64,000 nucleotides of DNA, taken from NCBI RefSeq assembly GCF_000814765.1, contig NZ_JWIC01000007.1, forward strand, positions 970,500 through 1,034,499, written 5' to 3'. Positions within the stretch are counted from its first letter, which is position 1, and every line of letters begins with the position of its first letter. This DNA is from Pseudoalteromonas luteoviolacea (GTDB lineage Bacteria; Pseudomonadota; Gammaproteobacteria; Enterobacterales; Alteromonadaceae). Position numbers and translations under genes: made by a program. Of the stretch, positions 1 through 9,029 are shown in pieces. A model generated the notes under the pieces. It searched no databases. It was not told where the DNA came from and saw only the letters and a list, made by a program, of their open reading frames with translations.

Positions 1-1710
1 TCATCACAGTTTTTGATCGAAGGTGAGCCCGGCGTCTGTATTAGAAAAGGCGTTACGATTGCGCAAAATAGCACTGGTGGTGTTCAACTTTTACCAGAAG
101 AGCTACAACAAGATGACACTGCGACAAATATAGGGGGGCTATTTGACTTTATTGCGTTTGGGCTACCTCAAGCTGGTGATAGTTATAGTATTGTTATTCC
201 ACAGCGAAACCCAATACCTTTAAATGCAGTATATCGCAAGTTGAAAGGCGAGCAGTGGGTTGACTTTGTTATAGATGAGCAAAACAAAATTTATTCATCG
301 CTTGGTGAACCTGGCTATTGTGCCCCTCCTGGCAGTGATGTTTGGGTGGAAGGTCTCACTGAGGGAGACTGGTGTGTAAAACTTCAAATCGTGGATGGTG
401 GACCTAACGATGATGATGGCATAGCGAACGGCAGCATTATAGATCCTGGTGGTGTTGCCGTCATAAATAATGGTAATACGTTACCAGTGGCGAGCGCCGA
501 TGAAAAAATAGTTGGATCTGGCCAATCTATTCAGATAGATGTTCTTGCCAATGATACCGATGCTGATGGAGATACATTGACTATTACCAGTGCGTCAGTT
601 GATTTCGGTACTGTGGTTATTGAAGAGAACAAATTACTCTACACACCACCTGAAACTTTTGTTGGTTTAGCTACGATCCAGTACAGCATCACAGATGGGC
701 AAGGCGGTACAGCAAGTAGTACAGTAGCCGTTAACTTAACTGTAAATGCTGCACCTACAACAACGTTAGACCAAGCTTCTACTACTGATAAAGCTTCTAT
801 TACATTAAATGTGCTCGAAAATGACTTTGATGCGGATGGAGATGCACTCTCTGTCATTGAGGCGGTAGCAGAACAAGGTGCCGTGGCTTTAAATTCAGAC
901 GGCACAATTACTTACACGCCGAAACTAGGGTTTGAAGGCGTTGATATCGTTACATATACCGTGGTGGACAGTAAAGGGGCGATATCAAAAGGAGTTGTAC
1001 AAGTGACGGTGACCGCTTACAAAACGATTGCTGTCGAAAATAAATCATCAGGTAGCTTAGGAGGCGGCCTTATTGTGATACTTTCAGCGCTGTTAATTCG
1101 TAGACGTAAATCTATTTTACCGAGTTTTGCCATGATCTCGTTGAGTTGCTTTTTGCCCTCATCTGCTTATGCAGACAATTGGGTTTTAAAAGGGACTATT
1201 GGTGAAGCCCGTGCAGGGGAGAGATTAGATAATAGTTCCGGCCTTCAAATTGAAGATATTGATAATACTAGTGGGTCTTGGTCTGTAAGTAGTTTTTACG
1301 AATTACTTCCAAACTGGCATGTTGGTGTTGGCTATGTCGACTTGGGGCAAGGAAGGGTAAATTTTGTTGGAGAAAGCTTATCGCCGAATGAAGCGCATTT
1401 GGCTGTTTCTCGCATTGCGCCAGTATTACCAGAGGGGTTTACAGTACAGGTAAATTATGACTTGTTTAAATGGCAAAAGCTCAGTGGTCAAGTGTTCATA
1501 GGTGCATTTGATTGGGAATATAAGATTACCAGCACACGAGATACTCGCTTTCTACAAACATATGAGGCTGCAGAAACGAATGCCTTTATGGGCGCGGAGC
1601 TTGGCTACAAATTGAGTGAGCGCATAGAAGTGGGGGCACAATACCGTTATTTTGATATCAGTGAAAATAATATTAATGAGTTTTCGTTGTTTATAGGGGT
1701 TGAGTTCTAA
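1..1710 (+). CDS. Choice-of-anchor U / Ig-like GlyGly-CTERM protein fused to an outer-membrane beta-barrel (5' partial)
   Basis: The frame is open to the first base, so the N-terminus lies outside the window. Numbering from the TTG at 13, residues 1-150 match the choice-of-anchor U domain, with its typical FDF, NAVYRK, GDWC and DGGPNDDDG motifs. Residues about 158-245 and 246-335 are two cadherin/Ig-like repeats, each with an N-D-x-D-A-D-G-D calcium-type motif. Residues 345-366 look like a GlyGly-CTERM tail: SSGSLGGG, a hydrophobic stretch, then RRRK. Such a tail normally ends the protein, and rhombosortase cuts it during export by type II secretion. Here the frame continues. RRRK is followed by a second hydrophobic stretch and a signal-peptidase-like site (SSAYA, cut near 387/388), then about 178 residues of alternating beta-strand pattern ending in Phe, as in small OmpA/OmpW-like barrels. 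An internal ATG at 1132 has no good ribosome-binding site. Domain calls are by eye; the barrel's role is unknown. Confidence 0.8.
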   Translation, partial: SSQFLIEGEPGVCIRKGVTIAQNSTGGVQLLPEELQQDDTATNIGGLFDFIAFGLPQAGDSYSIVIPQRNPIPLNAVYRKLKGEQWVDFVIDEQNKIYSSLGEPGYCAPPGSDVWVEGLTEGDWCVKLQIVDGGPNDDDGIANGSIIDPGGVAVINNGNTLPVASADEKIVGSGQSIQIDVLANDTDADGDTLTITSASVDFGTVVIEENKLLYTPPETFVGLATIQYSITDGQGGTASSTVAVNLTVNAAPTTTLDQASTTDKASITLNVLENDFDADGDALSVIEAVAEQGAVALNSDGTITYTPKLGFEGVDIVTYTVVDSKGAISKGVVQVTVTAYKTIAVENKSSGSLGGGLIVILSALLIRRRKSILPSFAMISLSCFLPSSAYADNWVLKGTIGEARAGERLDNSSGLQIEDIDNTSGSWSVSSFYELLPNWHVGVGYVDLGQGRVNFVGESLSPNEAHLAVSRIAPVLPEGFTVQVNYDLFKWQKLSGQVFIGAFDWEYKITSTRDTRFLQTYEAAETNAFMGAELGYKLSERIEVGAQYRYFDISENNINEFSLFIGVEF

Positions 1711-2257: not shown

Positions 2258-3922
2258 ATGCGTCTGTTAGCGGATGATAGTTACTTTGAAACCATAAAGG
2301 TTTCAAAGGTAGCGTTATTAAAAGTTGTTCTTATTTTATTCTCATGTGCAATTTCGGTTGTACATATTGAATCATTTTATTACCAGTACAACTATCCTAA
2401 ATGGGTTGTTTTTGATCTCTTTTGTATCTTTCTTATATCTTTATCAGTTTACTTCTCACCTAGAATTAGTGTCAATATTGTTAGTTTACTAGTAGGGTTA
2501 TTGTCTCTATACATGCTCTTTAGTCTAATGTGGGTGCCTAACCGATTCGAAGGCATACAGTTTATTATTAGATTCTTGGCGGCTGTAATATCGATATTTA
2601 CATTAGCATCTTTAATAAAAAAAGAACGCCTAATTGACATACTCACAGAAAGTGTTTTTTACAGCTCTGTTGTATTCTGTGTAGTACTTGCCTACGAACG
2701 TTATTGGCTAGGCATACCATACGGTAATACAAATTTTTCGCCGATTGGCTTTGTTAACTATCTCGGACAAGTTTTAAATATTTGGATCCCCATACTCGTT
2801 CTATCTATATATATTAAGCGAAAGTCCATTGCTCACCTAGTATTGGGTTTGGCTAGCTTAATGTTGCTTATGAACTTGCTAGTTGAGTCAAACACTCGAG
2901 GCACTATTTTGGGGTTGTTAAGTGCCGAAATATTAGTCTTGCTGCTTGTTTTAATTAAAACAAAGAAATTTGCTTTTAAATATCTTTCGATTTCATTCGT
3001 GTTTGTGTTGGCTGTTGGAACTTTCAGTTATTGGAAGAATTCTGGAACTGGAAAGCTAGAAGAGCAAGTTCAATCTATTCAGAATATGGATACTGGTCGA
3101 GATAATATATTTTTAAATACATTAGATATGGTGAAAGACAACCCCTTTGGCGTTGGGGTTAATAACTTTGAGTTTGTTCATCAAAAGTATGCGAAAGCTG
3201 GGACTTCAGAATCATCACCCTATGTATCTAGATATCAAGTATTGCTTTCGCCATACAATATAATTCTTAAATTTTATAGTGAACTGGGCTTAATCGGGGG
3301 AAGTTTATTTGCACTTCTTTATGGTTGGGTTCTATTTAGAGCATTAAGGAATTTACTTAATGGTAATTTTATAGACGCATGGATCTTTATGGCAGTGTTC
3401 TCATTGTCATTTCATGCCATGTTTAGTTCAGTCTATTTAACCCCAGTTAGCTTGTTTTTTTCGGTTATTTTATTCTCTGTCGTTTTTTCAAAAGAGAAGC
3501 CTAATACACAATTTACTTCGATTGGAAAGAGAAGGTCGATATTAATTTTATTACCAGTAGCATTGAGCCTGACTTATCTATCGGTGGTAAAAACAGCTTC
3601 AGGGTATCTGACTGCAAAAGGTGCTCGTTTGGGAGAAACTAGTCTTGTTGAAAAAGCATTAAAGATAAACCCTCAAGATTATTTTGCTGCTGTGCGACTT
3701 TCTGATCTTTATTTATATAAAGAACGTAATAAGGACGCGGCTTTAAAAAGCTTAGAGCATGCAATCAATTTATACCCTTATCATGTGTATCTTTTAATAA
3801 GAGCAGCTGAGCTATCGTTGCAATTAGGTTTAACCGAAAAGGCGAAGAAATATAAGCAGCGAGCCTTAGATATTTACCCAAGTAACTATAGAGCTTCGGT
3901 GATAGATACGGAGGGAAAATAA
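2258..3922 (+). CDS. O-antigen ligase / Wzy-like membrane protein with C-terminal TPRs
   Basis: 554 residues with about ten or more hydrophobic segments. The pattern fits the Wzy/WaaL/PglL superfamily (O-antigen ligase family, PF04932). The SNTRG motif near residue 211 and the following helix are typical, as is the large periplasmic loop around residues 270-330 with TGRDNIF and an NPFGVGVNNF stretch. Family members transfer lipid-linked glycans in the periplasm to lipid A core, to a growing polymer, or to protein serines. Residues about 455-550 are TPR-like helical repeats, a fusion seen in several ligase-like proteins. The start ATG follows a weak AAAGGG ribosome site. The gene lies 81 bp before a lipoprotein gene and then a large collagen-like gene on the same strand, with no terminator between. 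A dedicated protein O-glycosylation role is therefore possible but unproven. No other polysaccharide genes are nearby. Confidence 0.75.
   Translation: MRLLADDSYFETIKVSKVALLKVVLILFSCAISVVHIESFYYQYNYPKWVVFDLFCIFLISLSVYFSPRISVNIVSLLVGLLSLYMLFSLMWVPNRFEGIQFIIRFLAAVISIFTLASLIKKERLIDILTESVFYSSVVFCVVLAYERYWLGIPYGNTNFSPIGFVNYLGQVLNIWIPILVLSIYIKRKSIAHLVLGLASLMLLMNLLVESNTRGTILGLLSAEILVLLLVLIKTKKFAFKYLSISFVFVLAVGTFSYWKNSGTGKLEEQVQSIQNMDTGRDNIFLNTLDMVKDNPFGVGVNNFEFVHQKYAKAGTSESSPYVSRYQVLLSPYNIILKFYSELGLIGGSLFALLYGWVLFRALRNLLNGNFIDAWIFMAVFSLSFHAMFSSVYLTPVSLFFSVILFSVVFSKEKPNTQFTSIGKRRSILILLPVALSLTYLSVVKTASGYLTAKGARLGETSLVEKALKINPQDYFAAVRLSDLYLYKERNKDAALKSLEHAINLYPYHVYLLIRAAELSLQLGLTEKAKKYKQRALDIYPSNYRASVIDTEGK

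Positions 3923-4337: not shown

Positions 4338-9029
<4,692 letters not shown>

Follow-up and report, generated by a model that had tools for sequence, protein, structure and literature searches.

The window analysed here is the whole 64,000-nucleotide stretch of Pseudoalteromonas luteoviolacea DNA, read on the forward strand and numbered from its first base. Positions 1-1710 (+ strand) are the 3' end of a 5599-codon (16.8 kb) open reading frame, recognized by ORF calling and by matches to Big_9, Cadherin_4/5 and tand_rpt_95. No stop interrupts the frame between window base 1 and the TAA at 1708-1710, and its start lies outside the window (whole frame, L002:3010-19809). It encodes a giant Ig/cadherin/tandem-95 adhesin followed by a sorting signal, a signal peptide and a barrel. 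The N-terminus of the adhesin reads by eye as a signal peptide, as do those of relatives whose start is complete (e.g., P0002, P0009, and P0012), and a choice-of-anchor U domain lies at 133-462 (+ strand; NF041766, 38.7 bits, cut-off 32; coordinates converted from L002). Near the adhesin gene, a 554-aa ORF (2258-3922) resembles by eye an O-antigen ligase/polymerase-like membrane protein with a C-terminal TPR-like part, a 1563-aa ORF (4338-9029) has collagen-like GEKGD repeats followed by other long repeats, and two ORFs upstream of the adhesin gene (L003:11365-12399) are by eye phage-tail-collar or microcystin-dependent protein-like.

The junction between adhesin and barrel is compact and lies entirely on the + strand. 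A GlyGly-CTERM-type sorting signal, consisting of an SSGS motif, a hydrophobic helix and the basic cluster RRRK, occupies 1045-1110. This signal, SSGSLGGGLIVILSALLIRRRK, matched TIGR03501 with 15.6 bits within the 241-aa tail and 18.4 bits within a 65-aa piece (cut-off 15.5). The predicted rhombosortase cut falls between SSG and SLGG (1051-1056), by analogy to the cut between G383 and S384 of VesB (PMC11389362). The codons of the extra Gly-Gly contain AGGAGG, a Shine-Dalgarno-like sequence (1059-1064), and 10 nt past it is a GTG (1075-1077), the proposed in-frame internal start. The stretch from this GTG to 1173 would give the barrel a signal peptide of 33 codons if translation began there, as judged from the sequence and from a model helix. 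The RRRK (1099-1110), with at least two Arg/Lys at this place in 75/75 homologous tails, is the basic end common to both signals. The predicted signal peptidase I site, AYA (1165-1173, cut before 1174), was placed by residue conservation in the same 75 tails. Profiles, a structural model and Foldseek identify the remainder (1174-1707) as an OmpA-like transmembrane beta-barrel with a C-terminal Phe. A first-pass annotation, made from the letters of the window, had described a sorting tail that runs in frame into what reads as another signal peptide and then a barrel of 178 residues with Phe at its end; each of these elements was found where that annotation had put it, the barrel comprising exactly 178 codons.

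The AlphaFold2 model, built from 20 aligned tails, has helices at residues 25-40 (sorting signal) and 45-55 (second signal) of the 241 residues and then a barrel. Its mean pLDDT is 77, and 11 of the 19 ten-residue blocks from residue 61 onward have means above 90. Foldseek ranked E. coli OmpA first (9fzd, E 1.4e-8, TM 0.75 by target), and the top three hits were all OmpA (E 5.5e-9 to 1.6e-8). A profile search of PDB sequences also placed OmpA first (E 0.0023). The barrel in the window scored below the cut-off for PF13505 (OMP_b-brl; 21.3 vs. 28.7 bits), and barrels of relatives exceeded the cut-offs for PF13505 and for PF01389 (OmpA_membrane). Some relatives encode a complete OmpA with a peptidoglycan-binding domain, separately in L127, L129, and L133 and as the tail of fused genes, PF00691 included, in L110 and L121. 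Close relatives of the barrel that stand alone as proteins of 98-311 aa were sought among 5.8 billion proteins by a method that needs shared words and to which nested products are invisible; none of its 51 candidates had E <= 0.001. Two other identities for this region were discarded. Cys is common in the second hydrophobic stretch, which raised the question of a lipobox, but a lipobox is missing in a number of members that retain the AxA (by eye). Type V autotransporters have a C-terminal translocator of about 12 strands to which the passenger is joined directly; the barrel here is too small (178 residues, OmpA-like) and a signal-peptide-like stretch lies between passenger and barrel.

The fused arrangement is conserved throughout the genus. 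The 241-aa tail was searched in 108 Pseudoalteromonas genomes and matched at 77 places in 66 of them. At 75 of these places, in 64 of the 108 genomes, the tail belongs to an open frame of 1103-7208 aa with no internal stop, a set that is defined by its long frame. The other two places (G023 and G056) are separate, diverged barrel genes upstream of an adhesin gene. The computed conservation of the junction extends to every element in the 75 tails: a Ser/Ser-or-Gly/Gly (SSG) motif, the helix, at least two basic residues, the second hydrophobic stretch and the signal peptidase site. The motif is present in 73-75 of 75, depending on how two Ser/Gly swaps are counted. Ala precedes the proposed signal peptidase cut in 72/75, the unbiased count (a search restricted to Ala at -1 gave 75/75, partly by construction), and the third-last residue is Ala, Val or Thr in 73/75. 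Mean hydropathies are 3.00 for the sorting helix and 1.97 for the second stretch (best 11 residues), and the best for the barrel is 1.32. The last residue is Phe in 74/75. Motif, helix, basic cluster, second stretch and AxA are kept in fused tails down to about 25% identity. The database relatives that bear a name (22 proteins) are all Pseudoalteromonas except one Psychromonas; most are annotated as a "tandem-95 repeat" or "Ig-like domain-containing protein." Because the databases list one such protein, a separate outer-membrane protein would go unseen. The first-pass annotation had asked whether the fusion is conserved, and named as its refutation close relatives in which a stop or separate genes occupy this junction. 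That outcome did not occur: the two signals proved to be conserved together, and split junctions sit in more distant genomes. Because this junction recurs in 75 tails from 64 genomes and in 22 named loci outside the genus, a sequencing error, frameshift or pseudogene at this place is out of the question for practical purposes.

The sorting signal was compared with the terminal GlyGly-CTERM ends of the genus, 30 loci (L161-L190) taken from the longer match list in 40 genomes, of which 29 could be parsed; L168, L173, and L175 were wrong frames, and about 26 of the 29 are valid. These ends mostly have an SGS signature, not SGGS, and therefore SSGS is taken as the canonical part of the signal in the window. 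The GlyGly motif of the first-pass annotation is thus present at 1045-1110, with the refinement that the LGG after SSGS is extra. The work defining GlyGly-CTERM places it at the extreme C-terminus of proteins with no transmembrane segment besides the signal peptide (PMC3237569). The tail in the window has the motif, the helix and the basic cluster, is followed by 199 residues after RRRK, and has an additional hydrophobic stretch (hydropathy 1.97 vs. 1.32 in the barrel), which would be cut off if it is a signal peptide, as proposed. According to the VesB study (PMC11389362), RssP cuts VesB after the second Gly of GG, tolerates Ala-Ala there, and requires a Pro 12 residues past the cut. By analogy, these cut data suit cleavage between SSG and S; the Pro requirement does not, as Pro at the VesB-type position is absent in 74/75 fused tails and present in most parsed terminal ends of the genus, which mostly have it in the helix. 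A 2026 study, in its available part, describes GlyGly-CTERM as an independent motif and places it at protein ends (PMC13393428). Its position sets the tail apart from standard members of the family, whose mode of action it appears to share.

Both partners that the first-pass annotation had suggested looking for, rhombosortase and GspD, are encoded in the genome. The rhombosortase (G000:C6:642739-643194) scored 164.6 bits (cut-off 84) and has a GLSG motif by eye. Rhombosortase exceeded the cut-off in 106 of 107 genus genomes; the exception, G070, is among the genomes without a tail match, and the survey did not extend to G082, whose tail matched. Because nearly all genomes have the enzyme, its presence in the genus says little by itself. 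Outside the genus, rhombosortase was detected in 35 of 37 genomes with a fused gene, 11 of 11 with a split pair, the one with an unpaired barrel (G278) and 17 of 30 without a tail match. The two fused genomes without a match over the cut-off were G210 (40.7 bits; L103, 99% complete) and G272 (80% complete). This comparison is confounded by kinship, given that all 11 controls of the same family were positive; outside the family the counts were 39/41 vs. 6/19 (G278 omitted), and some controls may hold unseen fused genes because only the best 6-7 candidates per genome were scored. In G804 a rhombosortase gene (L223:845-1450; 138.3 bits) and a 691-aa fused gene (L223:1492-3567), both on the - strand, are neighbours, 41 nt apart with the fused gene in front, the latter combining a secreted part that is lectin-like by eye with GlyGly-CTERM, signal peptide and barrel. 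This looks like a dedicated enzyme-substrate pair, and Haft and Varghese (PMC3237569) described dedicated rhombosortase-substrate pairs as gene neighbours.

The fused form recurs in other Gammaproteobacteria, as read from their sequences. An order-wide search of 394 genomes, in nearly all of which the best 6 candidates were scored, gave 35 fused loci outside the genus with at least 40 bits, lower-scoring loci being left out of the count. The junction was complete by eye in 31 of the 35; L134 has one hydrophobic stretch, and L123, L137, and L138 have no clear motif in the stretch inspected. All 22 named loci from Shewanella, Rheinheimera and metagenome-assembled genomes were fused, in a search that was keyed on a pattern beside the motif and in which several organisms overlap the order set. 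In other orders, a class-wide search (best 6-7 candidates) yielded 29 inspected loci, the locus in the window excluded, of which eight were by eye fused with both signals and four were split; the others were separate barrels, direct joins or unrelated sequences, and many ordinary OmpA proteins matched. The fused junction of L094 has a long linker, with a whole classical signal peptide and its own Met after RRRN, and resembles a recent stop loss.

Relatives that encode the two halves as two genes were found as well. A split pair consists of an adhesin with a GlyGly-type tail and a stop, followed by a barrel gene that has an ATG and a signal peptide of its own (by eye). In the 12 pairs measured, the distances from stop to start were -4, -7, -4, -4, +1, -1, -8, -1, +27, +14, +26, and +195 nt; seven pairs therefore overlap by 1-8 nt, and 11 of the 12 barrel starts lie between -8 and +27 nt of the adhesin stop. 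The adhesin of G023 has a terminal RGGS...RR tail, and in the genome analysed here a paralogous adhesin with similar last domains ends directly after HRRR, with what looks by eye like a terminator behind it. A tree of 69 barrels (57 labelled fused and 10 rows labelled split; loci below 60 bits excluded) had six changes of form, at least three of them forced by well-supported branches. Labelling L111 and L126, which have no adjoining adhesin frame, as split also gave seven changes, again with at least three forced. L123 was scored as fused both for the tree and for the rhombosortase comparison despite having no clear GlyGly motif in the stretch inspected. These relatives, the paralogue and the tree indicate that the halves can exist as separate proteins, and on the sequences compared the fused form has the same two signals as the separate proteins do.

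The codons of the sorting signal carry a second layer of information. Within the 16.8-kb frame, AGGAGG and GGAGG each occur once, at 1059-1064, with GTG 1075 downstream. Each of the 75 tails was randomly recoded with its own codons and scored for at least 5 nt of AGGAGG with an in-frame ATG, GTG or TTG 4-10 nt on. This combination was present in 53/75 tails vs. 5.9 expected (8.6 with the other background), and in 0-6 of 75 in eight other 30-codon blocks, two of which, overlapping and upstream of the junction, were above expectation (6 vs. 1.8 and 6 vs. 0.9). The start is usually a GTG or TTG 7-10 nt past the Shine-Dalgarno sequence; in 13 of the 53 the sole start is at 4 nt, which is short, and the 10 nt of GTG 1075 is long. 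In most tails the Shine-Dalgarno sequence falls in the extra Gly-Gly. The glycine codon concerned (Gly47) is GGA in 55/71 tails, a fraction that ranges from 0.03 to 0.38 in 25 other glycine columns (next highest 25/65). It underwent eight third-base changes on a tree built without the junction, vs. 14-29 in 15 other glycine columns. Start codons were in excess 7 nt (33 vs. 16.3) and 10 nt (24 vs. 13.1) downstream and not at 1, 4, 13, or 16 nt; columns 63 (z 2.9), 71 (25 vs. 13.8, z 3.5), and 83 (z 2.6) have a further, unexplained excess. The GGA preference held when the tails were thinned to less than 90% identity (35/42 vs. 7.6) and to less than 60% (10/13 vs. 2.2); the start excess was 26/35 vs. 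12.7 and, weakly, 6/10 vs. 3.5. Among terminal GlyGly-CTERM ends of the genus, GGAGG was found in none of the 29 parsed (about 26 valid), and the only Shine-Dalgarno sequence with a start was that of the wrong-frame L175. GGAGG is missing at this place in 20/75 genus tails. Outside the genus the combination is weakly represented (7/35 vs. 2.2 expected, at least 5 nt matched), and mRNA folding round the start was uninformative, slightly weaker than in shuffles (z 1.19). A second AGGAG, with GTG 1003, lies at 990-1005 in the last Ig domain upstream of the junction.

These computed patterns show, at the level of sequence, that silent sites in the genus are under selection for a Shine-Dalgarno sequence at a usable distance from a start codon, and what is new is that this sequence is formed by Gly-Gly codons of a sorting signal. 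The first-pass annotation had considered an internal start at ATG 1132. That codon is not conserved: the column holds ATG in 1/75 tails (this one only), GTG in one and TTG in 23. The 25 start codons in the column of 1132-1134, vs. 13.8 expected, lie too near the cut for a signal peptide. The same annotation had offered double cleavage and internal initiation as alternatives; the data are better explained by the two in combination, with initiation at GTG 1075 downstream of AGGAGG, and the natural two-gene relatives make the very halves that double cleavage would release.

From these patterns we infer a topology, two cleavages and an internal initiation by which a single gene would give two envelope proteins, and we consider this combination fairly probable. 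The full product would be exported by Sec through its N-terminal signal peptide. Its GlyGly-CTERM helix would cross the inner membrane from out to in, leave RRRK in the cytoplasm and be followed by the second hydrophobic stretch from in to out, forming a hairpin in which the stretch from RRRK would serve as the n-region of the barrel signal peptide. Rhombosortase would cut between SSG and S, releasing the adhesin for anchoring at the surface via the type II system; signal peptidase I would cut past AYA and free the OmpA-like barrel, which the BAM machine would insert by its C-terminal Phe. In Pseudoalteromonas, the Shine-Dalgarno sequence and GTG/TTG in the codons of the sorting signal would yield extra barrel alone, here with a 33-residue signal peptide. 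Two products from the fused gene, double cleavage and, in Pseudoalteromonas, an internal start are each likely, and two end products are the best reading because relatives encode the halves as two genes with the adhesin stopping after its sorting signal. The recurrent pairing suggests that the barrel is probably an outer-membrane partner of the adhesin, holding it at the surface.

Several observations weigh against double cleavage combined with an internal start: 74/75 tails are without the Pro needed by VesB, G210 and G272 have a fused gene without rhombosortase over the cut-off, and the rhombosortase comparison is confounded by kinship. The Shine-Dalgarno sequence, moreover, is nearly confined to the genus, where 20/75 tails are without GGAGG, with a start excess that is weak below 60% identity and is seen at other columns too, and with spacings that are short at 4 nt and long at 10 nt. 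In a rival reading the halves are made by double cleavage alone and the Shine-Dalgarno-like codons do something else, such as pausing the ribosome while the helix inserts. Cleavage alone must suffice outside the genus because 28 of the 35 fused genes there have no Shine-Dalgarno sequence with a start (at least 5 nt), and a conserved GGA could slow ribosomes. Three findings count against this reading: within 16 nt downstream, start enrichment is confined to 7 and 10 nt; close relatives differ in having GTG or TTG at the Val/Leu position (L004 vs. L005-L008); and terminal GlyGly-CTERM ends, which must insert too, have GGAGG in 0/29 parsed cases. We regard cleavage alone as possible, with perhaps one chance in a few of being right, and we take the pattern as internal initiation, probable on these sequences, that Pseudoalteromonas added to an older polyprotein, with pausing as its main rival.

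The strong silent-site selection in the genus could also be read the other way round, with the working barrel coming from internal initiation and the full-length protein being a side product that loses its barrel end to degradation, so that its adhesin half alone would be of importance. A stop after RRRK would then be easily gained, and it is present in the split relatives and in the paralogue, yet it is absent in 75/75 tails (a set defined by its long frame), and GGAGG is missing in 20 of them; this reading is unlikely. An old gene fusion with one product, another suggestion of the first-pass annotation, is less likely than two products. In such an uncut protein the barrel would anchor the adhesin covalently and the hydrophobic hairpin would be a linker. 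In a few distant loci (L221, L233, and L234), possibly uncut relatives, the OmpA-like barrel directly follows a repeat or another domain, and neither a helix nor a signal peptide is visible. Within the genus, however, the signal peptidase site is kept in 72/75 tails and the SSG motif in 73-75/75, a hairpin of two hydrophobic stretches would lie in the inner membrane, and two-gene relatives exist. The N-terminus of an OmpA-type barrel is periplasmic, so a 5000-residue adhesin left uncut would end on the wrong side. The uncut fusion is accordingly quite improbable.

By definition a GlyGly-CTERM signal closes its protein, and here one seems to be functional in the middle of a frame. If the proposal is true, the adhesin is a bacterial polyprotein processed by two different inner-membrane proteases, and the junction is a clear instance of codons for a protein-sorting signal that also spell out a ribosome-binding site and a start codon. 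A broader statement has, in our estimation, an even chance of holding: that about 40 codons do four jobs, as sorting signal, signal peptide of the next protein, Shine-Dalgarno sequence and nested start, giving a sorted adhesin and its OmpA-like partner through two membrane proteases with extra partner by internal initiation, and that evolution has repeatedly moved between the fused gene and two overlapping genes. Two overlapping genes, a fused gene, and a fused gene with an internal start form a natural series in which the function of the OmpA partner of such adhesins can be tested directly. An internal GlyGly-CTERM followed by a signal peptide was not described in the literature searched, a scope outside which most subscription papers lie and which is weak evidence of absence.

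Several known systems share parts of this arrangement. Like the GlyGly-CTERM/rhombosortase (RssP) substrates, e.g., VesB of Vibrio cholerae, as described in three reports (PMC3237569, PMC11389362, and PMC13393428; see also PMC6219818), the adhesin has a Gly/Ser motif, a helix, a basic cluster and an N-terminus resembling a signal peptide in a genome with rhombosortase and a type II secretion system. Unlike in them, its signal is internal, with another signal peptide and the barrel coming after it in the same frame, the Pro is nearly always missing, and a Shine-Dalgarno sequence lies in the codons. The barrel shares its fold and C-terminal Phe with the OmpA transmembrane domain and small OmpA-like barrels (PF01389 and PF13505), some relatives being full OmpA with PF00691, but it differs from these in being the tail of an adhesin with no preceding stop and no conserved ATG of its own. 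FbcH of Bradyrhizobium is a precursor cut by signal peptidase into two proteins, with one protease and inner-membrane or periplasmic products. It resembles the adhesin gene in having one frame, an internal signal peptide and two products, here proposed, and differs in that two proteases and two surface proteins are proposed here. In-frame internal starts give nested, N-terminally shortened products such as short CheA, where, as here, a Shine-Dalgarno sequence and start lie within a longer frame; the start proposed here sits in a sorting signal and would yield the last domain alone with a signal peptide. Finally, translationally coupled genes overlap by sequences such as ATGA or TAATG, which recalls the 1-8 nt overlaps in 7 of the 12 split relatives, whereas the fused form has no stop and holds both genes in one frame.
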